Assembly: GCF_019649055.1 (NCBI RefSeq)
Contig: NW_026570238.1
Span: forward strand, 1,364,001-1,428,000
Length of the DNA: 64,000 nt
Direction: 5' to 3'
Source: Paramacrobiotus metropolitanus
Taxonomy: Eukaryota > Tardigrada > Eutardigrada > Parachela > Macrobiotidae
In this document: positions 1 to 53,114 of the stretch, piece by piece
Layout of the letters: each line of letters opens with the position of its first letter
How positions within the stretch are numbered: the stretch's first letter is position 1
Notes under the pieces: model-generated
The model's input: the letters and a program-made list of their open reading frames with translations, nothing else
Database searches by the model: none
Told to the model about the DNA's origin: nothing
Made by a program: the position numbers and the translations under genes

Positions 1-3000
1 GCAAGTTTTAATCTTATTTTTTTAAAAACAAGAGCGTCTTTGTTGCATTTTTATAATTTTATATTAAGGTCGCAAATACGGTATGCGTACTTCCATAGTA
101 AAAGTCAACATGCCACTCTGCGTATAGTATTAAAAATGAAAATTGTTTGTTTATTGCTTGTTTCAAGTGTTAAGTGATCATCGCAAAATGCAAAAGAAAA
201 TTACCCAGTGACCTAAATATAATTAAAATATAATAAATGATTTGTAACGCGCGTAAAACTTAACTTTCTGTTATAGGATTGTTGGTACAGCTATACAGAT
301 ATTAATTATATTCAGTACTACTGTAGTAACTGTACTTAACTACTATATACTCAAACTGATAACGTACAGTTATAAGGCGAAATAGTTGCTTTCTAAAAGA
401 TCTGTGAAGTATTTAATATTAAATGCATGCACATGCATATTTCATGCATTTCATTATACATATATTTGGGCATGCACCTTATTTGTGATATATATTACCT
501 AAATTTATAGTTAGTAATGCAGCTACGCCCCTAACGTAATGTCGTCCATGTGGCCATATTGAATACAGTACGAGAACCATCCATGATATGGAAATGGAAA
601 TACGAAGTCATCGACAAATGGTAACACCTGCTAGCATGAGACCATGCTTCCCTTTACCAAAAATATTTATCTTTCTTGTGTGGAGGAGCAATATGAAAAG
701 ATCAACATTTGAGTAATAATTCGAACCACTTATGCAAACAGTATCTAGGCGTCACCAATCGTCTGGCAAATTTAAGAAAGTTTCACTTGAGATTTGCTGG
801 GATTGTTAATCCAACGTTACCAGTTCTATACGCACTTTTAAAACAAAGTGAAGTAAAGAAAAACGCAGTTGTTTTTACTGCGCTGTAAGCTTGCGGCTGT
901 AAACGGCGGTAGTTTGTCATTTATGTGCAATCATTGATTTTGAGGCCTTCTCCACCTGGACTGGGAAGTGGGAACTTTACCATATCCCTTTACTTTTCAT
1001 CTCTTTTACTTTACTTGCCACTTCACGTGTAATGTACTCGCACCATGTATAGTAGAACATGAAGGTAATTTCACCGACAGGGAATTACCGATGCGCAGTA
1101 ATATTGATAATTGCCGGCAAGAAGGATCCCACCACTGCAAGCTGTGTGCGGAAACAGAATTTCTATCTTTACGGCGTGTTCATGGCGCGGTTTTGCATGG
1201 TGCAGTACCTACAAATATTGTATATATACCGTACTTGCACATAAAACTATTTCTCCAGTACTTTGTGTTGTATATTTAATAAACATCGCGAGAAGATCTG
1301 TAGAAGTAACCCAGGCGGTCTGCTAAAACATTGTGTATATCTTTATTGGGCAAAAGCCATCAATATAACAAAAAGTGCATACGCAGAATACTACGCAAAA
1401 TGATGCTAAAACATTTGAACAGAAAAACTACAAAATAGAGCAAAAAGCTTCAAATGCCACCAAATTTAGTATAGAAGTATCTCGAAACTGCCTATCATTA
1501 GAAAGGGGTTTAAAAAAGGGTGGTGCCGCGGTTTAGAAAAGCTCTGCATCGCAAACAAGCTAACCTTTCATTGTTCATGTGGTCGAGGTTCCTTCGAAAC
1601 CTACCTCTCTTCACCAAAAATTTTATAATAAGTTCGAAAACAATCACTTATTAAGCATCAATCGAAAGGGGTAGCCTAATCACAGAGAAAATTTGATCCA
1701 AATTTGCTCCCATCAGTGCTGTCCACGTGATCGATGTCGCATTCTCTCGTTGGATTTCGATGCTTTCCGCTGACGAAGATATTCCGTGACTCGTTTTTCG
1801 CCGGTTTCCTATCGTATCTTCTGTAATCTACCACTTGCCAATGTAAAACACGCACCATTATGACCCAAACAGCGCCTGGTGCCGGAAGTGTTCAACGTCG
1901 ACAGCAAGATTCGTGCAGTACACACTGTACAGAACATAGAATTCCGATGGCCTTTACTATTTAAAGATCATGAGTGTCAGCATGTAAGTAAAAGGAAGCG
2001 CATGAAAATACATGTGAAAATAATTATAAGCTACACAGTTGCTTCCAAATAAGAAAGTAAATGCAGTTAACCCCAGATTTGGTGGTTAATGTTAGATGTA
2101 CTCTGTAGATGACACATCGGAGGCAAAGCCTTTCTTGCGTCATAAGAGTATGATAGAGCTCTTACAAATGTAGTAGCTTACAAGCCAACAAGAAATAGTA
2201 GCTGGTGGCGGGAATTTTTCAGAACACAAATCTAAAATGACATACAAAAACAAGCGTGTCGTTTTGACAGGTGACATGCTCAAGCAAATTTATACAGATA
2301 CTACAGTATTTGTATTAAAAGTTGCCTAATTGTAGCGCTCATGATCATGGTCGCCTTTATGGTGGGGGATATGCGTATGTGGCCTCGCGCCAGCTTGCAG
2401 CAACGGTCCCGATAACGTACTGTTTCATAAAAACGGAAGACCTTAACTTCTCCATCTCCTGAACTTTTATAAACTCTGCGTTCCAAAACCGAACAATCTC
2501 CAAAAACGCTTAAAGTACTTCCTCTAAACCTTTTCCTACTCTAAGTAGCTCACCATAGTCTCTCGCAGATGCAAAAATTCGTAATATCGCGCAGTACCCA
2601 TGCAATATAACGCTTTGTTGTGGGGAAAAAAACCATAACATGCAGCCAGCTTCTTCAAACGCGACAAAACTTTTTGCTCAGTTGTTAGCGATTATTGTCT
2701 AATACAGTATAATGCCTACCAGCAAAACGATACACTCGATCTGGACAACTGAGAAAAATAATCCTAGAAAATCTGCGAAAAAATGATATGCCGGCATACA
2801 CGCCTTTGTTCGAACTTCGGAACTGCAGTGGACTACTTCGGCACATAATTACAGATTTATTTGTACATGTATACAAATTAAAGTACCGTTTTCGCACTTG
2901 GAAATAAAATAACCCAGACCAGGAGCGGCAAAGCAGAAGGGAGGACGGTGAAATATACTCGTATATCCAAACCAAAAAAACTTAATCAGCGTTTCGGCGA

Positions 3001-3220
3001 CGTTTTTGATTTTCTTGTACGGTACATACCTGCGGCAAACCACTACTTTATCGAAAATTCACGCTGAGAGTTTTATTACATAATTATAGTAATTATTACT
3101 ATGTCAAGCTTATTACTATGTCATGTCAAGCCGGTTTTATCTTCGATCTGTAACAGGAATTAGGGGGTGAAAAAATGCGAAATCTTTGGGACGGTACGTA
3201 GAAGATCTCCGAAAGCCAGA

Positions 3221-3254
3221 CAATATTTAATGAGCATTCCCTCATTAAATATTG
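3221..3254. repeat. perfect 14-bp inverted repeat (hairpin)
   Basis: Arms caatatttaatgag (3221-3234) and ctcattaaatattg (3241-3254) are perfect reverse complements separated by 6 bases. No gene lies beside it. It may be chance in AT-rich DNA or the remnant of a small inverted-repeat element. Confidence 0.7.
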
Positions 3255-4889
3255 ATTGTAAATTGTGCATTGTGGACATGAGCAATTTCAAATATGATAG
3301 AACTGTAATTTATTTTTTAAGTTGAACGGCAAAATTTTAGGACGAGCTGCATCTAGAGTAAACATACGTGGAGGTTAATCGCTATATAAGTTCGGGAAAG
3401 CGCTTGATGAAAGTCGATAGGGAAACATATCCCGAAATAATTTCGATCCCTTCCTTTACCAGTACTGAAGTACCTCGGAAACACTGTGTAATTTGCTGTT
3501 CCACTGCTTTCTGGTAAACTTACTCCTCAACATGATCAGATTAGGAAGGATCGATATCAGCTCATTGATTATAATATGGCGGCATTCCCGCCAGAAGCAA
3601 ACGTGATGTCCCTTTTGCAATCGGTTGTCTGATTTCCGGGATTTTCACACAACTTTCATCTTCAAAGTTTTTCAATGCCATCTTTAACGACAACCAGGCT
3701 CACCGAACCAATATTTATGGTAATTAGGTATTTCATTTGTTATAGGGAAAGCTCAACACTGTCCTCTCGGGATCTAGCCTCTATTTTTATGGGCTACTCG
3801 TACTCTTGTCTACCCGGAAAACAAACTTCTTAATAAAACCTATTTTCGAGCTTAATTTTGCAACCACCGCAAAGTATAAAATAATCCTTGGTGTGATGCA
3901 CCACTTTTTATCTGATTCGCACTTCTAAAGTGGTGCCGCGAGATTTTATTTCGTATCCGATGCCTTATGCACGGTTGAGTTTTTGAAATTGATGGCCCAC
4001 GGCCACGAGACAAAATGTGCTGCGAAAAAAGGGGACGAGAGCCTGTACATGTGGGTGGTGAAAGACTTTAGTGGCAAAACGCAGTTTCCGGAGTATTCCG
4101 CTTTTATAATTATTAGTCTGATTTCCAGGATTTTTTACAATTGAACGCTCACCTAATATAAATTTTTGTCTGCGATTGCTTGAACAGAATTAATTTTAAT
4201 ATCCGTAACGTTAAAATTTATGGATGCCACGCACAAGACGCTATATTTTTGTAGAACGTACGTACTTCTACGCGCGGCATTACAAACAACTTAAATAATA
4301 CGTGTACTGTAATAATCGTATAAAACAAATACGTGTAATATAATAATTATTACTAATATAGATAGATAGTACTGTACTTCTCAGTGTCATTCGTAACAGC
4401 TCGTTAGGTTGTTCTATTCTTTGAAAATCAAAACATTAGTGCTTCAAAATTCAGCGCAGAAATTCGGCAGCTTTGTACTGTCCAGGATCCAGAACAACAC
4501 TGCATTATTAATAAATAAAAAAAAGAATTAATGCTTCTAAAAACTCTAAATAATTTATTTTTAAAAGGAACCATCAGCGATAGTTATTAACACTGATATA
4601 AATAATTATACCGTATGTATGTATCTGTGCGCTGCATATGTATTGCGTTTGGGCCATGCAACCAATGATTTAATTCTTGGTCAAATTGATTGCAGGTATG
4701 TGATTAGAAATCAATTATTTTGCTCAATATAACAAAAATAAAATGTAGTTAAAATTATCACCAGCATTATGCTGCCAGTTTATTATCATTAAATATAGAA
4801 GTATGGATGATCATACAACAATACTTCTATTCATAGTGTATGTACATGTGCTACTGTGTTTGTCGCAGCAGATCCTTGAGTTTTTTGTA

Positions 4890-4947
4890 GAAACATTATT
4901 TTCTAAGGATTACATTGCATTGAAACATTATTTTCTAAGGATTACAT
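4890..4947. repeat. 32-bp direct tandem duplication
   Basis: A 26-base string beginning gaaacattattttctaagg occurs at 4890 and again at 4922, a period of 32 bp. The two copies are identical over the shared part. This is a recent local duplication in intergenic DNA. Confidence 0.8.
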
Positions 4948-7089
4948 GATGTGATTATATCGAAATTAAATTTGTTTTAGCAGATATACGTATATTGTTC
5001 CTACTATTCTCACTTCGCGTTTAACAGACTGTTATCAGCTTATAGCTTTTAGCGTTAATGGCGATGAAACAGCTTGGGACTTAACTGGGGGTGCGTACGT
5101 ACATTACTCTAGGGAATTCTGCAATTATAATAATATTCATAATATTACTAAACTAACATAATAGTAATATTATGTAATATTACAATATGTATCCTGGGTG
5201 AATAAAATTAATATTGCCCAATATAGTAAGAAACACCGCATTCATAACGGTATAAACAAGCAGCGGGAAGAGGCGGCCGGATTCGTGCCGTATTTGCCGC
5301 CGGTTTGCGGTATTCCGATCGCTTATTTTCGATCGCGATGGTTCGAATTCGGTTTCTACGGCAGCTCCAACGAAGCCGCGTTTAAAAGAAGCGTTTGGAC
5401 TTTTATGTCTGGGCTTCCGGCCCCGACGTTTCTTGCAGCCGAGGCCGTTGTAACCTCGAACATCCATCCTCTCATTTCAGGTGCAGCGGCGTGGACTGGA
5501 CTATAAATTATAATTTTGGTATGATATAGGCACGTACGTACTAAAAGTACTCGTAGTTCGTACAAACGATACGTATACTGTTAATTTGACTGATTTCGCA
5601 TTCCAGGAATGGCCGCCACTCCTTCATGGTGATATATATTTTATTTATATTTAAACACTGCAGTTGTAATTAGAATACGAACCTTAAAACTGCGCGCATT
5701 ATGTTCTCGACACTTTTGATTGCAAAGTTTGGCATTTCGACCATGTAAGTCCCGTAATAGGTACTTACAGTACAAGGAGGCTCGTATGGAAGTAATTTAA
5801 CTAACCATATCTGTAAAGACTACGCACGGGTATGTGGCTGACAATGGGCAATAGGCAAGCAATTTGCCGGCATTTAGTGAGTGTACTGATAAACAAATGG
5901 TTACACCATGTAAGTGCACATAATTAATACTAGCGCAAAACATAACAAAAAATTTCGTGCTTCATCACCCACACAAATTACATACGTGTACCGATGCTAA
6001 TCTATCTAATCGTAAGCAGTCGATATTCTATAGTATACACTCGACACTGCTATCGCTCACACCGCCCCAGCCTAACAACTTTGAAAATCCTTAACCCGAA
6101 ACAAATTAGCACGGGCCGGAAGAGACACATGGTCAATTATAAGCAGCATCCAAGTGAACCAGCCGCTTCTTTTGCTAACTTAACCTAACTCGTCCTAACA
6201 TTAGCCAAAGGACAATATTGTTTGAATTTAAACTTTGACCCAACCCTGAACAAATTTTTAATTTCAGAGCGGAAAAGGACAGCCCATTTACTGGAGGTGG
6301 CAAAACATAATTAATGGATGAATAAGTCGGCTGCGCACCGCTGACCGCCAATTCGCTCTCTGCACCATTCCCTTTCCGTACCAGCTCCGACTAACACTCA
6401 TTGCTGGCCGCCAAACGACATTCAACCTGAAAGTCAACAACCAATTATTAAGCCACGCACAGCACTCACTAATTAATTATGGACAATAGCGTTCCTTATG
6501 CCGGCCAGGGAGCTGTGCACGGCAGACTACGATTTGCGCGTAGATATGTGCGCCGAAAGGTCGACTGCAGTTATCGAAAGCCGGTTCGGCGTGTCTCCTC
6601 ATTCGCTGATTATTAATGGTCCTCATTGTCCAGTCCATGTACGTGTGTAGTAGAACCCACGCGTCCAACTCGCATGCGCTTTTGATTTTACCGGTGCACT
6701 TCTGATCATGAAAACCCTTGGGCTGATTTCGTTTGTCAGTCGCACACTGATAGTGTCACAGCAATTTTCTCTATTATTCTCGTTGCAGTTAAACTGTTGT
6801 TGCAAATTGCAATCGATCGCGTGGTTAGCGGAGATATTTTTTAATTAAATTTACGCGGACACGATGTATTGTATAATTATATATTGCATCATTAATTAGA
6901 TGTGCGGTATTCTCTGCGAAGCGTATTTCACTGACTCCGTGGTCGACCTGACATATTTCCAGCTGTATCGCAAAAACGTATGTATGACTTCGGTGAACGC
7001 AAGCCAATCAATAGTCAGTTTAATCTGAAGAGGTTGTTCGACATTGTCGAAAAAAGTGCTCAACTAATTTTTACACTGAAGCCAAAAGG

Positions 7090-8800
7090 ATGGACAAAGC
7101 GACATCGGAACTGGTCATGAGCCCTGCATTTTGCGGCCTGGAACGACGCAGGAATGGCGAAAAGCATAATAAAACAAAATACGGTGACATGTTTGTTGAA
7201 GCCAGCCAAAATTCCGAAACTATGGGTTCTTCCGACGCTCGTGTCCCGTTCAGTAATTCTCCCACTGCATTTGATAACGCGGATGACAAATTATCGGAAA
7301 CAGCGTCAGACGATGTCACCACATCCTCCAAACACAAACTGCGACCACACGAAAGCGGTTTCATTTCAAACAGCAAGCAACGACGCTATCGAACGACATT
7401 TACGGCTTTTCAACTGCAGGAACTGGAAAAGTGTTTCAGCAAAACGCATTATCCGGATGTTTTTAACAGGTAATTTCGTGGGCTATTTTAATGCGCCATA
7501 GTGCAGTTTTACTATGATGAAATTTGTAAATAAACTTTATGGTGTTAATTAATTTTAAAAGTCGTAATTTTTTTGCGGTCAACAAACCATGTGAATACGC
7601 CAGCACTACGGGTAACTGTCTAAACTTTCTATCGGCTGAGTTCGCGGGTAACAAAAGCGAAATTGTATAGCGCGTACATTTTATGTTGAAAATAATCTGC
7701 ACGTTGGGATTTTGCAGTTTATTAAGTTTCGTCAGCTTAGAATATCAAATCGATTTCTTTTGATAATTTTCTGAAAAACAACATCAGCTTTTTATACTCG
7801 TAGTTCTGTTGCGCAATCCCACTTACATAGATCTAGAGCTGACAAAGCAGTGTTTTTCCTTCATGATCAGATGTTAAATATACAAATTTTCGAAAAAGAC
7901 ACGTGGACAGTGAACTTGCATAATACTAAAGGTCACATCCATAACACTTTGTACCACGCTGACAATAGCATTTACACAGTGAACACACTGTGCTAATATC
8001 TGCCCCTTCACACATAAATTTTACAATATAATGTGCATCAATGCATCAATTAAGTTAAACGTGTTAGCAACTCTGATTTTTATATTCACAAAATACGAGT
8101 AGTATAGTTGTAGTTGTAATTTCTCTATATTTCGCGATTTTCCTGTCGCCAGTGCAAAAATTTTTTCTTCTGTAGAGAAGAATTGGCTCTGCGAATAAAT
8201 TTGACGGAAGCGCGCATTCAAGTGTGGTTCCAAAATCGTCGAGCCAAATGGCGGAAATCGGACAAAGTGGCCTCCAGTGAGTCAGGCAACGAAATTGCGA
8301 TTCCCTGTGGAGCTGACCCAAATCCACCCAATGCTCCCACGAATTCACAAACCAATCACCTCTTATCAGCTGGTGCTTTACCTGGTTTTTATTATTCCCC
8401 TTTTAATTCAAGCTCCCGAAATACTCGGGGTACAGGATCCGGCGAGTTTTATCAGCCATGGCTTTCCGGTCATCCACCGAGTGGATTTCAGCACAATCTT
8501 TCCAAAGGGTGTAGCAACGGCAGCAATGGCACCGGCAGTTCTCATCTGCCTCCTGTAAATTATCTGCATAATTTGTGGGCAGATAGATATAATTATTTGC
8601 ATCATATGGCCCTGTCGCAGCTTTTTGGGATAGACGGATTCAACCCGGCGGCGCCGTGGAAGCAACCTGTCGCACCCAGATGCATGCCAGCACCGCTCCG
8701 TATTCCCGTACCAGGCGTGCTTGAATCCTCGTTGAACACGAGCCAAGGAAGAGGTCATGCTTTCTTTTCTGAGGCCAATATGCCTCCTAGGCTGCCTTAA
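7090..8800 (+). CDS. paired-like (aristaless/Arx-type) homeobox protein
   Basis: Two exons, 7090-7469 and 8176-8800, encode 334 residues. The donor is aacag|gtaatt and the acceptor is tctgtag. The homeodomain covers about residues 96-156, from [16 protein letters not shown] to [14 protein letters not shown]. It has Gln at homeodomain position 50 and Asn51, as in Q50 paired-like proteins of the Al/Arx/Pph13 group. The intron falls in phase 2 inside the codon of homeodomain Arg31. Residues 1-95 are Ser/Asp/Thr-rich and lack a paired domain. The C-terminal half is rich in Gly, Asn, Ser and Pro and shows no recognisable OAR motif. The family consists of nuclear sequence-specific transcription factors, often neural or appendage patterning genes. 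The exact orthology (al, Arx, Pph13 or another) cannot be settled by eye. Confidence 0.9.
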
Positions 8801-14033: not shown

Positions 14034-17000
14034 CTAACTTTTTTTAATATTCAAGAAGTTCTCCACAGCAGATGTTGCAAAGACATCAGCAATTTCCAAA
14101 TCGCGAATAGCGCAGTAGCGCTCCTTCTTCCGCGTTTTGGCATTGGTGAATCCCTGGTCAGACTCAAAAGGGACTGTTACCTCTGCTAAAATGATACGCT
14201 TCTCGGTTCGGTTAACACATGTTAAATCAGGGTAAAGCGTAGTAGGAAGAATGTCGGCTGGGATGGTTGTGGAATGACGATCGTAGCTCTCGCTGTCAAG
14301 ATCGCAACGAACCTCCCACTTACCATTCTTAGCCGCACTGGTAAAACAGTCGAAAATAGCTTTCAGAACACTGTTATGTCGCCATGTGAAGCGTGCACCA
14401 GAGAGAGCGATAGGACACCAATTAAGGATATGACAAAGGGTACCGCTTTCACCACCACAGAGATCACACTTAGGTGAGACAGACATGCCCCACTTACATA
14501 GATTAGTGAAAGAAGGAGCAATGTCAAGAGCCGCTTTAACCATAAAGGATACAGTCTTCTCTGGGAGGTTGTATATTACTGACTTCCAAAACGTATCCAA
14601 TGCTTGTGCTTCTGCGACTGCCTTCCACGCGCCCTGCTGAATAAGAGTACTTAACCTATTTTCTCGCCTAGTTGTCATTTCTGAGCGAACTTTGGCGCTG
14701 ACTAACTTCCTAATTTTCCCTTTTGATACACCTGCCTGCTTCCCTGCCTCTACGGTGTCGTTAACAATGTTAACAACAGCTGTGTCTGACAAACAAGATT
14801 TTTCCAAGGATTTAGATGCAATAGTAGAAACAACAATATCTGTAGAACACATGGCATCCGCAAGAAAGGCTGCATGCGATTGCAAATAGATAGAAGTAAC
14901 AGATTTTAGATCTAGGCCATCAGGTGAATAGAATTAGTCGCAATTCGCGGAATTATTCAACCCAATCCACTTTTTGATGTATTTATTCACTTTGCTTTCC
15001 AACTTATTACCAACAGACAGAGTCAGATCATGTACCGTAAGAAGAAACCGGACACACGATGTCATATAGTCTTTGTAAATTTTTATTTTAAAAGTATCAC
15101 GTAAATTCAATTTATCAATACGCTGTAGAAAATTATCGAAAATTTCGCATATCTTATCACCAGCTGAAGTTGTTTGCTGCTTTTCAAAAACCCAGGTTCC
15201 CAAAAATTTCATCGGTTCTTCAGAGATATTCGTTATACGCTGACCCTTAATCGAAAAATCGGAAACTGTAGAAACGCCTTTTTTTAAGCTGGAGCTGCAA
15301 ACCCAGTGAATTCATTCGGCTATCGATGTCGTTCAAGACGCGCTGCATAGTTAATAATTTATTGTGCACGATTAACGTAAGGTCATCGGCAAAACTCAGT
15401 GCGACAAGCTTATGGTCGCGTAAATTATCGAAAGCAATACCGTGCTTCCTGTTATTTTCAATAAATTCCAAAATTGGGTTAAAAATTAATAAAAACAGCG
15501 CACAGCTCATTGTGTCGCCCTGAAACAAACCTACGTTAAACGGAATTTCACTGGTAAAAGAATCGTCATTTTGAATTTTAATAGAAAGTCCAGTGTAATA
15601 ATTATTAATGTAATTAATAATTTCGTCAGGAATGCCATAATGCTTTAACGCAGCCAACATGACTTCTTTCCTTACCGAGCCATAAGCATTGGCTACATCG
15701 AGCCAGGTGACGTGCATTGCACGTCTTTCAGTACGTTGCTGCTCGATCAGTTTCAAAAGTTTTAACGAATGTTCGCCGCACCCATTCATTTCTTCTATGA
15801 ACCCCTTTTGTACATCCGTATCGATAATACCGTTTTATATGCAAAAAGACATTAACCGTTTAGAAATAACTGAGTGGAAAATTTTCCCTACACAACTGGT
15901 TAATGTGATGGGACGATAATTTTCAACCGATTTCAAATCGCCCTTCTTATGTATAAGAACAGTCTTACCTGTCTGCCATGACTTACACGGTTTCCCTGAC
16001 GCCAAAATTTTATTAAAAAGAAAAGCCAAAAATCTGTGAATTACCGGAAACGGTTTTAAAAAAGCATAGTTTAAACCAGACCTGGGCAGTTATAACTTAA
16101 CTCATAACTTAACGCGAGTTATTTCCGAGTTATCGAGTTATAACGTAACTCTGAAGCGTAACTCGCGACGAAGAAAACTTAACTCTAACGTAACTCGAAA
16201 GTAAAATAGCGCAGCGTAACTATAGCGTAACTTTGTGGTTTCGAGTTATCTGTAAACATATTGAAAACAAACACAAAAGAAAGTTTGACTCAGGCCACAT
16301 TACTTTCCGAAAATTCGCGAAACAGTTAATTAATGAACATCGCTTGATCTGGTGTTCACCACAACCGCCCTAGGAACTGAGTCAACTGGCCATACGGCTG
16401 ATTGTGAATACGGATGGGATTCTGTTATGCCGTACATATATCTGTATTCTGTACGTACTCGTAAATCGCAGCAAGTGCTCACGCCGCCTGCACAAGTACT
16501 ATTAAGCTAGACCGTACTTTTATGTAATAGAAAGCGAATCAGCTTGGCTTCTTGAAAAGGGATTGCGGCATCGGTTTTATGCCCTTTATCCGGCAGGGAT
16601 AAGGTATTTAATGGAAACGGCTAGTATTGTTTTCTTAGACTTAAAAGCAGTATTATGAAAGTAATTTTTAATTATATAATTCAGATTGAAAGGCCAAGGT
16701 AGACCCAAAGACCGTCTAATAGGTAGCTACCAATAAAGATAAAAAGGTAAAATGCTCCGCTCAGCTGTAGCGTTTCCTTTATTAACCCATTAACAACGGC
16801 ACTACCAGCGGTAAAAAGCGGTCTTAAAAATCGGTGGAATGCGCTTTTTCTGGCAAATCCTTAAGTTTACGGCTTGTGAAATAGACTTCAAAACGCTTAC
16901 TGTTAGCGGCGGTCCGGCAGTTCCAGCGTATTTTGTAATACAGATACAGTACTTGTGCAAACATGTAGAGCTGATGTTCCACTACTATTTTTTGGAATTA

Positions 17001-18093
17001 GAGAATCAGTTAATTATTTCGAAAAACACATCGGCATGTGCTTAAAATCTAGTGTAAGTAATTAGTCCTAACTTAAATTGATTAAGAGCGCAAATGAAAT
17101 TTTTTTACTGTAGCGTAACTCGCGCTATAACTCGTAACTCATGTTTTTGGGAATAGCGTAACTCGTAACGTAACTCGCGCGCCCCGGCTAACTCTTAACT
17201 CTAACTATTGGTCCATTTTCCATAACTGCCCAGGTCTGGTTTAAACCATCGAGACCAGACCCACATGAAAGCTTCTTTTCTTTCAAGATGTACTCGATAT
17301 CGGATGGCTTGATATCTGACGAATTAAAGTTAACAGTCACTGGTTTCTTTTCGAGTTTGTTAATCCAAGCACAATCGACTGGTGGTAGCTGGGTTGGGTT
17401 ACAAACCTTTTTAAAATATTCTTCAATATCACCAGTTTTCAGCGCGCTATTGGAAGTATTATTACCGTGCTTGAGTTTCGAATTAATGAAACTGAACATA
17501 TTTCGCCGGAACCAACTATCGTTTTCTTTACGCTCTGCTGAAGATCGGAGCTGTGCTACTTTTTCGGAAAGGGTTTTCTTTAATAGTTTTAAATGACTTA
17601 AATTACTGGCATAATCGAGAGACAGTTCGCGGTTATTGGCCCTGATGCGGCGCTTCGTCCGCTTTAGTTTATTAATTTCACGAGTTACCGAAGAAAGGTG
17701 GGACAACAGTTCAGGAGGGACGGCACTAACTCGCTTTTTGTTAAAAAATTTAGTTTTAGAAGACGTGCAACGTAAAACACACAAAGCATATTCTGCCAAC
17801 CCCCAAGTGAATAATTCAGCAATCTCATGCGCAGCCCAAAGGTCATGTTTACATGCGTAAGATAATTGATTAGTGAAGTCACCAAGAAACGATTGATATC
17901 TTACCAGTGCGGAATGGGGGAGGTTGTCCCACGCAGGAGGAAGGATTTTCTGACGAGAAGCATTAGCGAGAATTACAGAGGAAATATTAATTGGTAATTT
18001 ACGGTAAATAATTTCATATAAAAACCGGGTAAGGTATGCTTCTTCATGTCCAGATTGGCAGCGTGTGAATCGGTACCAGTTCTGAACGTCCAT
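14034..18093 (-). pseudogene. dead R2/NeSL-like non-LTR retrotransposon (LINE) ORF
   Basis: A degenerate LINE polyprotein is read on the minus strand in five blocks: 18093-17239, 16076-15838, 15834-15286, then about 15278-14937 and 14933-14034. The reverse transcriptase core is visible: YRPITLTSCVGKIFHSV, VTWLDVANAYGSV, the GLFQGDTMS block and the FADD box (LSFADDLTL). Downstream lies a CCHC-type knuckle (CDLCGGESGTLCHILNWC) and a C-terminal PD...E segment (YPDLTCVN, then AEVTVPFE). That arrangement matches the restriction-like endonuclease at the C-terminus of R2/NeSL-type elements rather than an N-terminal APE endonuclease. Damage: in-frame TAA at 15835-15837 and at 14934-14936, a one-base frameshift in a 7-base A run (15279-15285), and a hAT-type insertion at 16077-17238. 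A 5' end before 18093 is not evident. Confidence 0.85.
16077..17238. mobile_element. hAT-type non-autonomous DNA transposon (1162 bp) inserted in the LINE
   Basis: Perfect 17-bp terminal inverted repeats CAGACCTGGGCAGTTAT (16077-16093, complement at 17222-17238) are flanked by an identical 8-bp direct repeat gtttaaac (16069-16076 and 17239-17246). An 8-bp target duplication with CAG-starting ends is the hAT signature. Both subterminal regions carry many short taactcg/cgtaactcg words in both orientations, as expected of transposase-binding repeats. No transposase frame is present, so the element depends on an autonomous partner. Removing it together with one copy of gtttaaac restores continuity of the surrounding LINE frame, so the insertion came after the LINE. 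Confidence 0.93.
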
Positions 18094-18329
18094 GGTGACT
18101 GGGAGGACTGATGTCGATAATTAACAAGGGATATTCAAATTCGGATGATGGAATACGGCAGTTTTCACAGTTAAAAACGCCAGTTAAATTCGAAAACCGC
18201 TATGCTTTTACCTGTGGGTAACATGCATAGCAAAGTCTCGACCAGCCAGCACAAGCAGCGATCGAGAAGTGACACATTTTTGACTAATTGAATATTACAT
18301 TTTTGACACACCAGCATGAGTAATGGTTA

Positions 18330-19832: not shown

Positions 19833-21270
19833 AGCTCGAAATCTAATATAATATATGTATTTATTTTATTTTAATAATTACTGAAGAGCTTGACTGATTG
19901 GCTGAAAATCTTACAGTCTTACACGCAGCCTGCGAGGTCACCTTGGGCAACAGTTAATTGTTTCCCACAAGTTTCCATTAATTCTGCGCTGAAATATCGG
20001 CTGAACGGTTTTTTATGGGCATCGTGTAAATGATCCCATCCATCCATTTTATCACCGTTTAAATATTATTTGTCGTACCAAAAAATACAGGTTTTCAGTT
20101 CGTTAGAATTGGCAATATAAAGTTACATTAAAAACGGGAAAAAGAACCGTGAAAAAGGCAAACAAAAAGAAAAATTACGGAGGCTTTCAGTTTTTATAAA
20201 CTGGTCGAATTTAACTGGGAAGCTTGAAAACTGTCCGCATTTCCACATGTTTAAAATATTTTCGTAGCTGTCCTCGCTGGGGTTTTATATTTGAAATATT
20301 TCTCAAAATATTTTTTATTGCTGTACCGCCTGTACGAAGTATAGTTTGTATTTTTTTCATTTTTCCATACCTCGAACACAACTGGTCGCGCGCTAGCGCG
20401 ACCGATACTTGTAGTTTATTAATTATTACGGTCCTGACTGTGAATACGTCACGTATTGACTTATTGTTGGACAAATTGGACGCAATAATCGGTATAATGT
20501 GCCGGCATAGCATCTTTTACTTACACCATTTCCCAGCTGTATTCTGGCTCGCCCATTGTGACGCATATATGTACGGTATGCTGCATCTTATTACTGCGCT
20601 GGTAGTAATCTCGAACAACGGCTTCGAACCATAACGTGGTCATCTCTTTCTCACCTTTAGCATCAAGTTTTTAAAGCAGTGAATACATGGAAATGCACCG
20701 AATTTCTACACGAAATGCACTGAATTTCTACACATGAAAATAAGCTGCGGCTACTGCAATGCTGGTTTGGAGATATGAACTTTGGGACGATAAATGTGAG
20801 GAACTTCCTCATTGTCAGCCGCCGGAACAATCCACACCTCCATGGCAAGAACGTGGCAGAACACTTATAACAACAATCAATTAAAACAACATAAGTTTTA
20901 TTTTATCAACAAAAAGTCTCTTTCGTCGATCTCGGAAATCCAGGGAGCGTCTGAAATTAATATTAATCCGGGTGATTTGGTAGCTCGCTATTAACTTTAA
21001 CTAAATAATAGACTGCATACAGAATCATGCGATATGCCAGTAGCTGTAGAAATATACCTATGCGACATTACACTATTTTATTCGCGTACCGCGTATCCCA
21101 AGTTCCCGACTATTGCCGCTTTACAATATAGTGCACACTGAATTAACAATTCACTGTTTACTATTGTTAGAGCGGCAATGCCACAACGCATAACCACGTC
21201 GTATAAGTAAATGTAAGCAGTACAAATATACTTTAATCTATTATATCTGGACTCCAATGGTTAACATTAA
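19833..21270. other. intergenic region before the astacin gene 3' end
   Basis: I see no recognisable gene. Overlapping opposite-strand open frames at 20211-20634 (100 and 136 codons) match nothing I know and lack splice or start context. On the minus strand an AATAAA (plus-strand tttatt at 21077-21082) lies about 190 bp past the astacin stop and is a good candidate for its polyadenylation signal. Confidence 0.5.
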
Positions 21271-24200
21271 CTAAAAATAACAATAATTATGCGCCGAAAA
21301 ACTAAATTTATATTTTTTTGTTACCTGGCCAGAAAGTCTATCCAGCATATACAAATGAGTTCCGTCTCCAATAGATTCAGTTGTTGGAAAAGCTAGCATC
21401 CTTCCGTCAGGTAATTCCGTGACCGGTCCACTCAAAAATAAAGGATTTTGGAAATTCATTAGCGGGCCCATAATTTTATCAGATCTGATGTCGTACAGCC
21501 ATGTAGAAGCTCGAGATATGAAATGGATAATGGTCCCCTTCACAAAAATATTGTCCCATGATATGTCCGGTAGTCCGGGAAAAAGCTTTTTTAGAGCAAC
21601 AGGACCACGGATATCGCTATCACTTTTCGCAACCCATACCATAGTATCCTGTAATTGTAATATAAAAATAAGCATTACCAAACAACGGCAACCTTAACCT
21701 GGCAGATACAAAGATACAGGCAAAGCCAGTGCGTTCACACTCCACAGAACTCAATTAGTAATAATATAAGCTTAACACTACAATGAATTATAATTCTAAC
21801 TAATCAATATACGCACAAATTCAGTTTCGTTCAGTTATATACTTGAAGTATACTTACACAGGCCTTGCTTAGTGTTGGGGATGAGTTTAAACGCACGACT
21901 ACGGATAATTATTTTAATTCTAACTCTATGCAATAATTTAACTGTGAAATATTTACATACATATTAAATTTTATAGCTGTTATAACCCAGTAAGTTTTGA
22001 TCAGTAGAAATGTCCCACGTACCTTCACAAAGTAAATATAAGTGAGGTAACTGAAAACGCTGTCAAGTTTATTTGGAATGTCTGCATTAAAATTTGCTTT
22101 ATAAGCCTTTGGAAAGTTGGGTTGTTTTGTAAATGCACCATCCAGATACGAATACTTCCAATATAATCCATCTGCAATCCACAAACAAGACAACATTAAA
22201 ACACTTTGATGTAACTGAATCGGTAAGTTTCAGATTTGCTGCTCTGTATGCCAATGGTTTAAACAAATGGGTGTGCTTATATACTGACGAATTAAACACT
22301 AGACTCTCTCACCTTTGAACAAATAGAAAAACCCTAAAAAGTTTAGTACAGCATCTGGAGCAAAAAATCCCGAGCATACGGAAACAGCGGACGAGGTGGT
22401 CGGTGGCTGGATGATTTCCTGTGGAGCGTTATTATCCGCAATGGAGTGCAGTGTTCCGGGCAGAACCGGCACATCCACATTGATGGTGCTAGGTGTGCCT
22501 GCTACAATGAACTGCGGCGCTTGGACGTCATTTTCGTGGTTAACTGTAGATATATCTTCGTTTCGAGCTTGACGAACTAGCGGTATGAGTTTGCCGTTCT
22601 TTGAAGTGTCTTCTGGATTGGTATGTTCGCTGGGATCAGGAAAACCGGGATGATCCTCAACGAAACCGCCGATAAACGGCATCAACCGCTTCGGACAGTT
22701 GTAAAATACTAATATCTGCTGCAGGTCAATTGCACTGAAGCCGCGGCGTTGACCCAAGCGATCCGGAGGAAAGCCCATGTTTTTCGGTATCATAGTGTAT
22801 TCTTTGTCATCCGGATCTTTGGAAAACGTCAACGCGGAATAATGCATAACCGACGAGTAATCATATGGCACACCCAGTGTATTGCCAGATTGTTCGATTT
22901 GAAAATTGCTGAGTTTGTCGGCACGAATGTTGTTCCATACGACCTGAACGTGGTCGTCCCTAGTGGAATTGAAATGGTGCATCGTGTCCGGTTCACAACA
23001 AAACAGGTGCTTTATAAACAAGCGTACACCAGAGCTATTAGAATCTATTGGCGGAACTCACCGATCGGGTCTGGAGTGTTCGTGATAAAATCCAATCCTT
23101 CAATTATTAGAAAAAATGAATGTCACAGCCAGATCGTCTAACAATTAGAAGGATGCTAATTGCTAATTATGTACTATTATATTTTGAAGACATTCGTTAC
23201 GAAAGCAATGATGACTTGCAGATTCATAATTTAATAATTTTGTCTTTTAAACTTTGCACGCAGTGGTTATTTACATATTGGTGTGCAGTTTATTACTGTT
23301 CGCTGTGAAAAAAATTACTTTTACCGTCCTACAATAGATTTAGGTAGAAACTACTACCCTGAAAATGTGAAAAATTGTGTATAGAAGCACAAAATATCAT
23401 TAAAAATGTCCGCATAAAGAATTAATGGGGTTCGGTGAGGATGGGGATTAATGTAATTCAGTTTTACACTTACGTGTGCATTAGTTCATGGATGATCGTT
23501 CCTTTTAGGTAGAAACAGTTTGGCCGTAATAAAAAGACTTCCTGTCGACCACCTTGCCATCCAATATAAGAAAGGCACCTACACAAGAACAAGAAGCATG
23601 AAAATAACTGACAACGTGGCCTAATTTAAAGATGTATTTTTGTGTATCCAAACTAAAATACTGAGTGTAATGCAAAGCTTTTAAGATTTAAACACGTTGC
23701 ATTACGCAGCCTTTAAGTTACTTGGCGAATTTCGGTGGATACGATCGCGCGCACGTTTTATGATGCCGCTGCTTGATACTATAATACGGCGATTTATTGT
23801 AGGTATTATGTAAGCATTTTTGTAGCTTACTGGTTAGTGGATGACAGAAACAATTGCGACCTTAGTAACAAAATCATACCCGCGCTTTGGATCGGTGGTT
23901 ATAAAAACATAATCGCGTTGACCGGTGCGCGGAACAAACTGGACACAGGTACTGTCCGAAAAGTCCCGGAATGCCAGCATTAACATTTCAGTTTCGTTGC
24001 TTTCTGCAAAATCAGCATTTTTAGAATTTTAAAGATGAAATTCCCTTGAAATTTTAACTGGAGAAATCCACGAGAATTAAGAGGAAAACACTGTTAATTT
24101 GTTAGGTGATCGAATACGATGGCTTTGATGTAGGTACTAGTCATGACTATGGTTGTAATACTGCATAAAGTATTGTACACTGTGATCGAGAGAATAATAC

Positions 24201-24753
24201 GAGAATCATTTGTAACGACCGCAAAAAATATGTTTTATGCAGTACATGTATAGGATTAACTTGGAATGACTGTATTACTAAAACCGTTTGACATCGAAAT
24301 ACTTTTATGTCACCTTTGGTACTGCGTTGATGTCGGTGGGAACAATCACTTAAATGTGCATGATACTGCATTATAACTTTAGAAGAAACATTAAACCTAA
24401 AGTAAGTGCTCTGTTTGAAGTGGTCTAATAATTTTGGCGTTATTCGGATATTTTATAAAGCCAAAAATACTATAATTCATTATACCGTTGCATAACATAC
24501 TATGTACGTGCAATTAGCTATCTCGCGTAGCATACAGCTTACTTACGAAATCCCGCTGCTGGATCAATTTCATATGGGATGAAGCGACTTGGCCACTGCC
24601 GAGCGGAGTTGACCTCGCGAACGGACAAACGTTTTTTCGGAATCAGGATATCATTTTCCAGGATACTCAACCCTTCCAGTGGCTGTGATTCAATGAATTC
24701 TTCTGGATTTGTCACATTTCTAATACGTTGCTGTGAAATGGGAAACGCACTAC
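21271..24753 (-). CDS. astacin metalloprotease with C-terminal hemopexin-like propeller
   Basis: Minus-strand exons are 24753-24547, 24003-23880, 23578-23474, 23097-23062, 22959-22313, 22171-22023 and 21648-21271. All junctions keep frame, giving at least 547 residues. The exon carrying the signal peptide was not found. An ARQWPSRFIPYEI segment marks the mature start. The zinc site HELMHTIGFYHEHSRPDR is intact and assembled across two introns, and the Met-turn SVMHY follows. After a Pro/Thr-rich linker come hemopexin-type blades: DAVLNFLGFFYLFKG, LYWKYS, KLDSVFSYLTYIYFVK and WDNIFVKG. A Cys just before the first blade and the Cys five residues... near the C-terminus (NYCYF) could form the disulfide that closes such propellers, which supports the unspliced end at 21271. 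Astacins are secreted zinc endopeptidases and usually carry CUB, EGF, MAM or ShK domains. Hemopexin propellers are typical of matrix metalloproteases. Confidence 0.85.
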
Positions 24754-24778: not shown

Positions 24779-27300
24779 GACTGGTAAGTAATTTATTGTG
24801 CGTAATATAAATAAAGTTCTACAAATGTATTTTAATTAAATTAGCAACTGTAAAATCACCCTGATTACCGTACCACAATACCGATATGTGCAAAAGCTAC
24901 AATTCAATTTAGAGGTTTGTCAAGGGTTTTGTTATTAATACTTCTAGAATATTCTCCTACATGCCAAAGTGCCGGTAATATTATAATACTGCTGTATGCT
25001 ATACACTCTTGCATACCTTGCGTTGGTTGCGCTCATACAAATAAATTAAAGGAAAAAGCTCGAGAAAGCATGCAAAATCACAGACCCCTAACCTCACCTT
25101 GAAAATAATATAAAATAAATTGAAAGAAGGAGTTAATTAAATATAAATTACGCAGAAATGCGCGGCAGCTGTTAAGATGATAAAGCTGCATTTTTACGGA
25201 GGTTTATCCAGGTTCATCCCATGAAAGTTAGATATATCCTGCAGTCCAGGCCAAAGCCATAATACCAGGGCCACATCGTGTGTGGTACAACATGAATTGT
25301 TGGAGGGAACGAATTCTGCCGGTCGACACCGTACCAGAAGTGTTCCAACAAGCAATTCAATGGTGAGAAAATTTGGCAGATGAAGTAATGACTTGCTCTT
25401 GGCCTGCACAGTATTTTGCATTTTTGGGTTGGTGATTTAAGCTAAGGTTGCAAAATTGTCTTTATCTTTTGTGTTGTGACAATCTTAGCGTTGTAGTCAC
25501 ACTGATTTCGTTTAGGTGTTGTTTGAGCTTCCGGTCGTACAAAATTAAACACTGTATTGACGGCCGATCTGATGACGTTTGAATATTTTGTTTGTTTTAA
25601 CAGTAAATAAACCTATGTTGTACTTGTGCAGTTATTGAAGCTGTATGTATATGCAGCAATGCATCAGTTACAGTTTTGTATGGGAACGTTTGCAGGACCA
25701 GTGATGAAGCAAATTTAGGCGAACAAAATGTCGGCACCCTGTGTTGCACCTTGGCATTTACTTAGTTCTCCAAAATTTACTCGAGTTCTGTTACTTCTGT
25801 GTTCCATACACAGAAATATTCAACTTCAGTGCATTATAATCTACCGTAAAACGGTATAGTCCCGGTTCTACGGCAACAATTTTTTGACGTGCTTTAGACA
25901 TCGCCGGCGCACAATACGCCGTCTTTAGAACGGCATGTTTCGGTACATTTATGGAGCCCGTTTTTATATACATTTTCACGTCTAAAATACATAGTCTACG
26001 GAAGTATATATATGGCTTTTGAAACTCAAGAAACAACCATCCTAAGGACATCTTTTGGTTGAAGAAAGCATGAACGTTTTTTTCTCGCATAGAACCGGGG
26101 GCGTACTTATTAAACTATATTACTGGAAATTACTGTACTGTATTATCGGAAACTGTACTGCATGAAATTTAAACAAAGTTTATGAAAGTATGAAAACAAT
26201 CGGAAGGTTTTGCGAAGATTCAGGTTCTAATTGTGCAAAATATGTACGTGAAATATACGGTAAAAGATACAGTTTATCAGTTCTGACTGAATGTAAGTTC
26301 CGTAACGACCAATAGATATCCAACATACAACACCTTTACTGTCTGACAGACTTCTGGTTGTGAAACCGCACCGGATTTTAATGATTTTCGTCATGTCCAT
26401 AGACTACATTTATTTTTTATTAACATTTTTATTTAGTGCGCTTACATTTAATTACGCCGGTGCTGCCATATATTAAATACTTATACAGTGCTATTTATCA
26501 TAAGGGAATATTACGGGAAAGCTCTGCGAAATGGCCGCTAATTATTTATCTGCCGACTGCTTTATGCTTTCCCCATACTCGTATCCTTGCAAACTTAAAA
26601 TAATTAGAATGATAATACAATATATAAACGCAAAACCGGAAATTAATAAGCCGAAATAGGCATAGTTAAAATCAAGACACCATATCTGAACTTTAATAGT
26701 AATATCAGTTATTTACAGTAACTGTCATTAAGTAATAATCAAAATCGGTAAGGTTTTCCAAAATATTGTAAAGTTACAACATTTACGGTGATTTACCGGG
26801 TTTACTTATTAATTATTATGGTGAATACGGTTGTGCAGTTTCGCCTCGGTTTGGTGCATACGGTTGTGCAGCATCTTGGCGCTTTTGGAATCACAGACAG
26901 TTTCCTGTTTAATAATTAATAGCTGCTTTCCGCTTTCGCTTTCTTATGTTTTGTGATTTTTTGTCATTTATGATTTATGTAAAAACTTATTACTTATGGT
27001 GTACTTGCGAAGTTTTGCGGCTTATCGTTCATCAATCAGCAGTTTGATTAAGTAACAATAGTTTGCTGTATCCTGTGAAACAAATATTTGTGGGCTATGC
27101 GCTGGATGAATTAGCGCAAGTTTAATTTTTTCGGTTTGATAACTTTGATTGCAATATGTAATTCTATGTTTCATGAATTGGGATGTATGGGAGCCAGTCA
27201 GTGGAAGAGCACTGTGGAATCTAGTTAGGAACACCAGGACGTGTCCTGAGTTTAGTTTAACCGTTTATTGCTGGCAGTTGCTGTTTGTGTACTATAACAA
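24779..27300. other. region upstream of the astacin and KIAA0930 genes
   Basis: The region lies between two divergently transcribed genes and should contain the promoters of both, plus the missing first exon(s) of the astacin. The minus-strand frames at 25421-25194 and 26090-25791 were considered for that exon. The first has a hydrophobic run (ALVLWLWPGL) but no donor in the right phase. The second resembles nothing I know. No repeats stand out. Confidence 0.5.
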
Positions 27301-30030: not shown

Positions 30031-32403
30031 TCAGTTAACAGACATGGAGTCGCTTTCTTCCGACAAGAGCTTGAGTAACATATCCTTTTCTTCCTTGATT
30101 CTTTCTTTACAGGCATCTAGAACATTAAAAAGCAAATCACAGGCTTTAGCCATGTCGTCTTTCTCCGTCTCGCTCAGGCTTCTGGTGTCGATGCGCGGCT
30201 GGCGTTTTGCTCTCTCCGTCAAATATCGATCGTGCAGCTGAATATTGGTTGCCAGTTCTTGAGCTCGATTCTGCGAACATTCAGTGAATATTAACAATAA
30301 ACAGGGTAGGTAGCAACAAAACAACAATGCAAAATGCAACCATGTAATACGCAAAAACCACGATGCAATAAGTTACGATAAATCCGTTCAAGCTTATCGC
30401 CAATTTTTGGCATGCACTTCTTCACACCTTCAAATTCCTTTCAGGTGCTTCCATCGATGCCTTCATTTGTGACACTTGATCGAAAAGATCGGTTTCAAAT
30501 TTGGAAAGAGGCTGACCTATCCGCGCGATGGTAGGCTGATTGCTCGCAATCTAAAAAGACAGCGGAAATGTAAAACAACAACTCTGGCTGGATGAACAAC
30601 TACTCACAGCAACTTACACGCAATTGACGCAATACAAATTTATCCAACTTATCACGATAACTGGAAGACAACTGTTTGTTTGTCTCGGCTTTGCTCTCAA
30701 GCTGTCGGAGATCATTTTCGATGAGTGTGGATTTTTCCTTGCACAGTGCAGCCAGCGCGTGTTCCTTCTTCAGTTGGTCGTACATCTCGTTGAATCCGAC
30801 GATGGGCACAGGAAAGAGATTCTCCGGATCAGGATTATCCTTTTGTGCTTGGTACCACATGTATGAGCTGAGACCAGGGGGAACTTTTTCCAAATACTGC
30901 TTTTCCATTTCTTTAGTGTGAGCGACCTTGGCCTGAACATCCTCTACGAGCATACTTTGCAAATGTGCTCTTTGTGCAGGCTGCATGAGGAATGAAAACA
31001 ATTCCGAAGCAGGGGTGCGACGTATATTTCCGTCATTTTGTCGTTCTAGGACATGGAATAATAGTTCACATCTACAAAAGCAAATTATGTCAAGGTGATT
31101 TCACAACTGCACGTTTCTCCCGCATCTGTACATTAGTAGTTAGCACTTAACGATGCAACAGCGAATTTTCGCTGACTAATTAATTTCAGGTCTACCAAAG
31201 GCTGTAAACAAATTCGAGGTTTTGTAGCAACGACATCACACTTTTCTGATTAATGAATTTGTGAACTTACTTATTATCTGGAAGAGGAGCAACGCCGTCG
31301 ATTTCCACTTGAACATTCGGCAGATCTCCTAAAAGCTTATGTAACAGCTCCGCCAATTCCCTTCTGACTTCGTACACTTCGGTATCCGTCTTGTTAAAGA
31401 TCATCCGGATGACGCCTTCATTACTTCCCGGATCCCGCTTAGGCATGTAAACAACACACTGAAAGTACCATAAAATTCATTAAAAAGTGAACAACCAAAA
31501 CGTAATAAATAACACCGTAATTATTAAGTACCATATGTTCACGATTTCGAATTGTTTTAGTGGCTGCTTTATTTGCGCAACGCTATGCATCGGACTTCAA
31601 AAACTACGAACCTTCCACTTGCAAAACGCATTGTCAGGCGCAATCTCCAGAGTCTGCCCTTGACTATGAAAAGCCTTCCCACAGCCGATGGTAGCCAAAA
31701 CGGAATTGTATTTAGCTATGATCGGATCCCGGTCATCTCCGAAGATAAAGGGACTTTGGATGCACGTAGCCAAGCGAGCGGCATACTCTGCTTCCGACAT
31801 GGGCCCACCTGGGGCGGGTTGAGCGCCAAACACATTTGGCTGAGTTGGTTGCGCTCCGAAGAACGTTCCTCCTGTCGTTTGGGTACCACTGAAGAAGCCG
31901 CCCGATGGCTGGGCTGGCTGACTAAGCCCAGAAAAAAAAGACGACTGCGGCTGCGCTGATTGAGCGGTTGCACCGAAACCACCGAACGTTCCACTGCTTG
32001 TGGTAGGTGCACCGAATCCCCCTGTCAATTTAACGATTAACCAAATTATAATTGCCTATTTTTGAAAACGCTGTCTTAGCCTGACTGCGCCGATTGTCGG
32101 GTACTTGAATCAGATAATGTAACATATTAACTATTTTTGAATGGAGGATTTTCTAGGTGGAATCACTGGAATCGTAATTCCCCTGAGTGTACTTATGTGC
32201 CTGCAAATGTTAGACAAAATTGTAAATAAGACTGCCTGCCAATCCTTACCAAAAGCGCTCCCACCGAAACCTGGGGCAGCGTTTGGAGCCGTTGATCCGA
32301 AAGCGAATCCCGTGCTTCCTCCAAACGTGGGCTGCTGCCCGGATACGGCTGGTGTTGAAGCAGGAGCTCCAAATGCGTTTCCACCAAAAACGTTGGTATT
32401 TGC
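30031..32403 (-). CDS. Nup54: nucleoporin p54 (Nup54), first exon unresolved
   Basis: Minus-strand exons are 32403-32250, 32021-31612, 31458-31271, 31071-30618, 30550-30428 and 30270-30031, all in frame, ending SMSVN-stop. The N-terminal part is an FG-repeat region (FGG, AFGA, FGGS, FGAQ). The Nup54 core follows: DDRDPIIAKYNSV, then VVYMPKRDPGSNEG, then DNPDPENLFPVPIVGF. The C-terminus is predicted coiled coil. Nup54 joins Nup62 and Nup58 in the central channel subcomplex of the nuclear pore, where the FG repeats bind transport receptors. The first coding exon with the ATG must lie upstream of the acceptor ctacag at 32404. I found no ATG exon with a phase-compatible donor. The gene faces the SCAF-like gene head-to-head, so 32404-33087 probably contains two divergent promoters. 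Confidence 0.93.
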
Positions 32404-51496: not shown

Positions 51497-52288
51497 TTAA
51501 GAATATCTTACTATGATAATGATGATGATAATGAGGAGCACAAGCACAAATGGGAAACTGAAGAATATGATGCGATTCCTGCGTCTGGATAAAGGGAAAT
51601 TGCGGTTCATCCAGTCCGCCACGGGGCGGCCCTGTGTGGCGCGGTTGCCCGCTCTCTTTAAGTACGGTTTACCGGTATCCTCCATCTCGATGGTGGCGGT
51701 GTTCTTCTTGGTGTACACTTCCACCAGATCATCATCGTCCTCATCGGCAAACTCTCGTTTATGTTTCATCTCGTGCATACTGGTGCGACTGGGCTCCACA
51801 TGGAAATTCTGCGATCCATTATCGCCCATATAGCCCAGATTTTCTTTGTTCCCGGTGAGCAGATGGCGTCGGACGTTGCCCTCACGCTCGGCAAACAATC
51901 CCTCGACGACGGTCTTGGAATCCACCGAAGCATCACCGGTAATGGCGAAGGCGAATTTATCCCGTAGACCGTCGAACTCGCGCTGATGGACTTCGACAAT
52001 ATCCTTCCGTTTGGCCAGTTCGGCCATGTTCAGACCGAGCACTTTGGCGTTCTGTGACTGCATAGCGAAGGTATCGTTCAGTTCTTTCAAGTTGTTCTCC
52101 AGTTCACTGATCATCTTGATGATATCCTGCACGGCGCCCTTATCGAAGGCGACATCATCATCCGCATTCTCCTTGTGTGTCGGTGAAGTGGGCAGCTGTG
52201 CTTGCCGGTCAAACTTCTCTACGGCGCTGGCTAAACGGCTCAAATGGTGTTTCACTTCACCGCGATTAATGTAAAATGGATCGGCCAT
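51497..52288 (-). CDS. syntaxin-6-type N-domain protein, tail-anchored, no visible SNARE motif
   Basis: One uninterrupted exon encodes 263 residues. It starts MADPFYINRGEV in a good context (aaaaaATGGCC). Residues 1-112 resemble the three-helix N-domain of syntaxin 6/10: a DPF and GEV start, then a long spacer, ELENNLKELNDTFAM, and LGLNMAELAKRKDIVEVHQ. Residues 236-261 form a very hydrophobic C-terminal anchor with seven consecutive Ile, followed by VRYS. Between them, residues 113-235 are polar, acidic then basic, and I see no 60-residue heptad SNARE motif before the anchor. Syntaxin 6 works in fusion at the trans-Golgi and endosomes. A protein with its N-domain and anchor but no SNARE helix could bind tethers or SNARE partners without driving fusion. 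The single exon among intron-rich neighbours suggests a retrocopy. Family assignment is moderate. Confidence 0.6.
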   Translation of the reverse strand: MADPFYINRGEVKHHLSRLASAVEKFDRQAQLPTSPTHKENADDDVAFDKGAVQDIIKMISELENNLKELNDTFAMQSQNAKVLGLNMAELAKRKDIVEVHQREFDGLRDKFAFAITGDASVDSKTVVEGLFAEREGNVRRHLLTGNKENLGYMGDNGSQNFHVEPSRTSMHEMKHKREFADEDDDDLVEVYTKKNTATIEMEDTGKPYLKRAGNRATQGRPVADWMNRNFPLSRRRNRIIFFSFPFVLVLLIIIIIIIVRYS

Positions 52289-53114
52289 TTTTTATGAGTT
52301 GTCCTTCTGATTACAAATGTCCCCGTGTTTCAATCGCTCGCAAACCGTAAAACTATCGCAAATTTTGCAGGTGTATGATAAGTGTACGAAAAGTGTAGTG
52401 TATCGCAGAAATGGGGTCGTGTATTGCGTGGAATAGTTACCTGCCACTTTCTCCTTGTAGCGCACATCATAATTTACTACCTGTATTATCGGGCTTTTAT
52501 CACAAGAAATTACACCAACCCGGCATGACTCGAACAATGCAAACGGTCAAAGGTTTACGATAATGCACATGTTTCCTGGTGTAAACACTGGTATCGTGCA
52601 GTGTAAATGCATGAGATCCTTACAAATCACCGCTTTCAAAATGCAAGTACTTACTGGTACTTACGATCGGGCAGTTACAGCAATCCCTTATCGGTGTCCG
52701 ATTGCTGTTTCTTTCGTTCCAATTAAAATATGTAATTACGCATCTACCCGGGTAACTGTGATCTCTCGGAGACTCGGATTAACGCTACGGCCAAGCCCAT
52801 GTCCCGAAATGTTTCGGCGTTCACGTTCCCATCGTTTTAAAGTCGATCAAAATGTTGCGGTATAAGTACCGTACTCAAATTTATAGAGTGATGACTGTTG
52901 TTTTCGTCATTATTGTGCATAGCTATATATTCAGATTCTGGTTGTCGGTGCCGAAATTGCGAGTACGAACTACGAAGTAAAGCCGATTGCAACGACGTTT
53001 TACTTATACGAGTACGATACACAAATGTTCTTTGATGCTCATATGTACAAATCCTCGTTCCTAGCAGTGCCTCTTTGCACTAACAACTGCAACAGCATAA
53101 AACAATAAAAAATA
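52289..53114. other. intergenic region between Rab11 and the syntaxin-like gene
   Basis: This stretch is 5' to the syntaxin-like gene and 3' to Rab11, both on the minus strand. No coding exon is seen. The plus frame at 52563-52865 has no recognisable content. Confidence 0.5.

Follow-up and report, generated by a model that had tools for sequence, protein, structure and literature searches.

A predicted astacin protease with an MMP-type hemopexin domain in the tardigrade Paramacrobiotus metropolitanus

Introduction

The hemopexin domain of matrix metalloproteases (MMPs) is held responsible for much of their substrate choice. In the MMPs that carry one, represented here by human MMP9 (propeller structure 1itv) and by six loci of the tardigrade Paramacrobiotus metropolitanus (L059–L064), a catalytic domain is followed by a hinge, a cysteine, the hemopexin-type domain and a terminal cysteine. 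As modelled, the gene described below has the same order of parts, and its propeller is homologous to theirs. It differs in having an astacin catalytic domain instead of Peptidase_M10, no cysteine in the propeptide and no intron in blade 3.

The astacins, defined by the motif HExxHxxGxxH, were reviewed by Gomis-Ruth and Stocker (2023; PMC9848320), who found more than 25 000 sequences and some 30 partner domains. Hemopexin is absent from the list of partners in the legend of their figure 1, and the word has no occurrence in the portion of the text available to us; the remark of an earlier note on this DNA that hemopexin is an unusual astacin partner agrees with that list. With crayfish astacin (1ast), BMP1 (3edg) and high choriolytic enzyme (3vtg), the present gene has in common the whole catalytic profile, the zinc motif, the family Glu and the Met-turn, but its partner domain is hemopexin.

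No description of an astacin–hemopexin fusion was found in the literature searched, which comprised titles and the beginnings of abstracts, with subscription papers, preprints and domain databases outside its scope; the available parts of PMC12549020, PMC11788884, PMC10381214 and PMC5491558 contain none. In a table of PMC11788884, human MMP24-type genes are listed with a match to the Astacin profile, a warning that the Astacin and M10 profiles can cross-match; the gene described here has a full-length Astacin match and none to M10.

Results

Gene structure

The window analysed is a stretch of 64 000 nucleotides of contig NW_026570238.1 (C18), and positions without a contig name refer to it. 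The astacin–hemopexin gene lies on the minus strand, where the motifs quoted in the earlier note are found in the window sequence. Between 25191 and 21325 it has eight exons, bounded by GT–AG sites and consistent in phase; a proposed ninth follows at 20950–20906, and the model that includes this ninth exon has 576 residues. Elsewhere in the window, Pfam matches indicate a homeodomain split over two frames (7024–8800, plus strand), a Nup54-type nucleoporin (30600–31100, minus), a ubiquitin hydrolase (45410–46852, plus), a syntaxin-6 type N-terminal domain (51497–52291, minus) and a trypsin-like piece (58267–58638, plus). A reverse-transcriptase element, its extent judged by eye, occupies 14034–18120 of the minus strand, with an RVT_1 match (E = 1.4e-16) in 15247–15834.

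The candidate first exon, E0 (25098..25191), would provide the start codon, has a stretch that weakly resembles a signal peptide and ends in phase 1. It was picked by eye, its GT donor and phase fitting E1; it scores below our hydropathy filter for signal peptides, and the same filter gave two other candidates. The propeptide, with a possible aspartate switch, and the start of the catalytic domain are encoded by E1 (24547..24753). The N-terminal part of the astacin domain, including the first conserved Cys, is found in E2 (23880..24003); two further conserved Cys and the beginning of the zinc motif (HELMHT) are in E3 (23474..23578), and the remainder of the motif (GFYHEHSRPD) is in E4 (23062..23097). 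The astacin domain ends in the long exon E5 (22313..22959), which encodes its C-terminal half including the Met-turn, then a hinge (about 104 residues) and Cys384, and finally blade 1 as far as its middle. E6 (22023..22171) completes blade 1 and begins blade 2, again to its middle; E7 (21325..21648) completes blade 2, encodes blade 3 and opens blade 4 with its first half, blades 3 and 4 being weakly supported. All of E1 to E7 are preceded by AG and followed by GT, and the phase is kept throughout, as the earlier note had claimed for its seven exons.

The proposed last exon, E8 (20906..20950), encodes TLPGFPRSTKETFC followed by a stop codon and would provide the end of blade 4 and the terminal Cys576. 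Its acceptor, TTAATTTCAG, has the AG and phase 0, and among the 11 downstream acceptors that pass the filter it alone opens a frame ending in Cys and stop. The E8 peptide aligns with the ends of MMP propellers (GYPRPT...C), and a possible poly(A) signal, AATAAA (20897..20902), adjoins the stop. The alternative 3' end, read-through to 21271, is kept as a second possibility; a profile test discriminates only weakly between the two (0.4 versus −0.8 bits), and E8 is preferred for its splice site, the Cys at its end, the alignment with MMP propellers and the AATAAA beside its stop. This bears on the pair of cysteines reported earlier: the Cys before blade 1 stands (Cys384), but the one placed near the C-terminus, in HNYCYF, belongs to intron read-through, its place being taken by Cys576 in E8.

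Astacin catalytic domain

The spliced protein matches the Pfam family Astacin (PF01400) at residues 84–278, over profile positions 1–189 of 189, with 183.8 bits (cut-off 22.5) and an E-value of 3.5e-54. Both this profile and Hemopexin (PF00045; see below) exceed their cut-offs, which was the outcome looked for in the Pfam check proposed earlier. Peptidase_M10 gave no Pfam match to the spliced protein at E-values up to 10. The best NCBIfam match, LegP (138.8 bits), falls below its cut-off of 300; LegP identity was therefore rejected and the match read as general astacin likeness.

The sequence HELMHTIGFYHEHSRPDRD contains the HExxHxxGxxH motif and an ExxRxDRD-type stretch, which occupy invariant columns of our astacin alignment (A1), and the Met-turn SVMHY stands at the SIMHY position with the zinc-binding Tyr. 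The intact zinc site and Met-turn reported in the earlier note are thus both present, in conserved columns of A1. The zinc motif, the family Glu and the Met-turn are in columns conserved with nine other astacin exons of the same genome; three of the four usual astacin Cys are invariant in this own-genome alignment, and the first aligns with that of a solved relative. The nearest solved sequences are the LOC792177 protein, high choriolytic enzyme 1, tolloid-like 1, BMP1 and astacin. The propeptide (model residues 32–83) has no Cys and hence no cysteine switch of the MMP kind; read by eye, the Asp in ILENDI may serve as an aspartate switch.

Hemopexin-type propeller

Over the whole protein, PF00045 is found in two stretches (27.5 bits, E = 3.1e-6; cut-off 21.3), and with the hemopexin domain alone the score rises to 33.5 bits (E = 4.1e-8). 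A phmmer comparison matches the MMP9 propeller at E = 9e-9, over residues 8–129 of the 179 queried, a span of three blades. Identity to MMP propellers of the same genome is 23–29%. A profile built from five of these propellers gives the domain 29.6 bits; none of 2000 shuffled sequences reaches this score (best shuffle 8.0 bits, and 12.1 bits in another run of 2000).

Nearly all of this signal (28.5 of 29.6 bits) resides in blades 1 and 2. Blades 3 and 4 alone score −0.7 bits, a value reached by 150 of 2000 shuffles, and have no Pfam match; E7 and E8 together score 6.0 bits, reached by three of 2000 shuffles. Of the three or more blades claimed earlier, blades 1 and 2 are upheld by Pfam and by the profile, whereas blades 3 and 4 are not distinguished in this way. 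The blade 1 motif described as ending in FKG is FYLFKD in the spliced sequence.

The structure of the part formed by E7 and the read-through end was predicted with AlphaFold without an alignment (mean pLDDT 55.7). The model has a short helix, a four-stranded sheet (33–62) and strands at 76–78, 84–86, 98–102 and 109–114, the last lying in the 17 read-through residues, outside E7. A Foldseek search with this model returned no match at 0.001 or better. Among its best 50 rows, most of which we take to be beta-propellers, proMMP-1 ranks 24 and 26 and hemopexin 37, with other propellers above them. For this part of the protein, the four-bladed fold expected by the earlier note thus found propeller-like matches but no confident prediction, an outcome that agrees with a propeller and does not prove blades 3 and 4. 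If E8 is right, Cys384 and Cys576 both stand at the places of the MMP propeller Cys and are candidates for the closing disulfide; we infer that they would close a four-bladed disc.

Joining point and intron positions

The fusion is contained in one open frame: since E5 leads from the second half of the catalytic domain across the hinge and the Cys into blade 1, the joining rests on no predicted splice site. Intron positions in the propeller were compared with those of the six MMP loci, whose splice sites were inferred from borders and frames. In five of the six (not in L060), a phase-0 intron splits blade 2 behind a Lys, the final residue of its first half, and the gene has this intron too (after YFVK). 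The gene also has a phase-1 intron in blade 1; a phase-1 acceptor at this place, seen from the acceptor side only, occurs in two of the six MMP loci (L061 and L064). In blade 3, where the MMP genes have a phase-1 intron, the gene has none. That the introns of blades 1 and 2 agree with MMP introns in position and phase favours an origin of the propeller in MMP genomic DNA, most likely in an MMP gene, and also lends support to the gene model. The domain shuffling proposed earlier, an MMP-like layout built on an astacin, is supported by the lack of an M10 match, a hemopexin score over the cut-off and propeller introns placed as in MMP genes.

Astacin and hemopexin genes in the P. metropolitanus genome

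The own-genome searches cover an assembly of 169.8 Mb. The astacin set is very large, with at least 164 matches (150 of 445 candidates scored). Hemopexin (PF00045) gives 17 matches at E-values of 0.001 or better, 15 of which adjoin Peptidase_M10 matches; the limit of 10 gives 36, including two on contig C33, four on C107 and one on C26. Neither scan lists the gene in the window, and these hemopexin counts are lower bounds. The four on C107 (164506, 171115 and 177645, plus strand; 257524, minus) are similar and weak (E = 0.003–0.004) and are perhaps repeated copies. A match to the propeller query on C83 (E = 0.375) was set aside, the surrounding frames looking like a mobile element with no astacin match.

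The two strong hemopexin matches away from M10 are on C12 and C3. For the C12 frame, there is no astacin match in two overlapping 10-kb stretches and no M10 match listed on the contig. The other (C3:1554916; locus L066) follows an astacin-like domain: two frames match PF01400 (1.3e-6 and 4.8e-7), then come a linker and a hemopexin frame (2.5e-7), whose joining rests on inferred splicing. This locus shares with the gene the astacin-like domain, linker, hemopexin and the phase-0 intron of blade 2. It differs in having lost the zinc-site and Met-turn residues, in a Pro/Thr-rich hinge contained in its own frame and in a hemopexin part with 27 of 171 residues identical; judged by its sequence, the astacin-like domain is probably no protease. 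The locus (about 2750–5870 of its stretch, near 1552750–1555870 of C3) shows a possible membrane-spanning stretch near its end. Comparison of the catalytic exons did not establish a common origin for the fusions on C18 and C3; those of C18 lack a close paralogue, the best match over their full length having 41% identity. A third astacin–hemopexin case is possible on C33 (215324–217998, minus strand), where an astacin match (217792–217998) is followed on the same strand, after about 1.3 and 2.4 kb, by two PF00045 matches (E = 0.006 and 0.115); the hemopexin there is half-blade, and no M10 match is listed on this contig.

Other additions to astacins were seen in this genome. Leucine-rich repeat (LRR) matches follow the astacin domain in the same open frame in five of the 10 frames scanned (L034, L014, L016, L017 and L021), exceeding the Pfam cut-off only in L034 (1–1941, minus strand; 3e-10), with the other four below it. 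LRR is absent from the astacin partner list as available in PMC9848320. The astacin frame of L022 (580–1932, minus strand) ends in a stretch that looks LysM-like by eye, with no call by Pfam; PMC9848320 names a LysM astacin from a tardigrade.

Astacin–hemopexin pairs in other organisms

A search with alignment A1 through species genomes of bacteria and archaea gave 186 relatives, of which 80 were kept, and a hemopexin profile hit the astacin frame in one of these 80 loci. This is Drouetiella hepatica, a cyanobacterium known from a metagenome-assembled genome (L130), in which an astacin domain (1.3e-44) and four hemopexin stretches (1.6e-17) share one open frame. It has a short junction instead of a hinge, no visible closing Cys pair and another hemopexin subtype, 28 of 174 residues being identical to the tardigrade gene; its joining was probably independent. 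Four of 386 cyanobacterial genomes match the D. hepatica protein, including its own, the other three over the hemopexin part. In viral contigs, 67 stretches matched a pattern and none is a relative. The pairing of astacin and hemopexin is accordingly not unique to the gene, being found on contig C3, possibly on C33 and in one cyanobacterium.

Discussion

The gene on C18 is very likely a single genuine gene, predicted to encode a secreted astacin protease with a C-terminal MMP-type hemopexin propeller on a long hinge, and that it is a fusion gene appears highly probable from the sequence. The contrary reading, in which two neighbouring genes, for an astacin and for a hemopexin-only protein, were wrongly joined into one model, is very improbable: hemopexin proteins without a protease may exist here, as the C12 frame with no astacin or M10 nearby suggests, but in E5 a single open frame runs from the Met-turn half through the hinge into blade 1, and the phases agree through E7. 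Least probable of all is that the hemopexin likeness arose by chance or by convergence of a repetitive beta domain. The modest identity to the MMP propellers of the same genome would fit that idea, as would the other propellers placed by Foldseek above proMMP-1 and hemopexin; against it stand the Pfam score over the curated cut-off, the MMP9 match, the shuffle control and the shared intron positions and phases.

A more serious competitor, though still an unlikely one, accepts the fusion and takes the propeller to be decaying or incomplete, with blades 1 and 2 kept, blades 3 and 4 drifted and the tail a spacer or functionless. The concentration of signal in blades 1 and 2, the negative score of blades 3 and 4 and the weak profile test of E8 all point that way, and the relative on C3 is an instance of catalytic residues being lost in a gene of this kind. 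However, every exon keeps an open frame between good splice sites, the Cys that would close the disc is retained and the score of E7 with E8 is rarely reached by shuffles.

Under the preferred reading, that of a fusion with a complete propeller, an astacin gene and an MMP gene would have recombined in the hinge region. The product would be a secreted zymogen, its zinc masked by the propeptide Asp until cleavage removes the propeptide, with a four-bladed disc closed by Cys384–Cys576. The disc may work as in MMPs, binding an extracellular-matrix substrate, an inhibitor or a partner and steering the catalytic domain; by analogy, we lean slightly towards such an exosite or anchor role. More tentatively, and with the balance somewhat against it, astacins may have taken up the exosite module of MMPs repeatedly; in the lineage of this animal, an astacin would have received its propeller from an MMP gene and founded a small family (the active enzyme, the presumed non-catalytic one on C3 and possibly that on C33), MMP-style substrate steering thereby arising anew on another metzincin branch.

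An astacin with an MMP propeller is a rarely seen combination. It adds a partner domain absent from the list in PMC9848320, one whose origin is indicated by gene structure, and the same genome has a relative presumed to be non-catalytic. As a natural transplant of the propeller onto another metzincin, it may allow one to ask whether the propeller carries specificity by itself.
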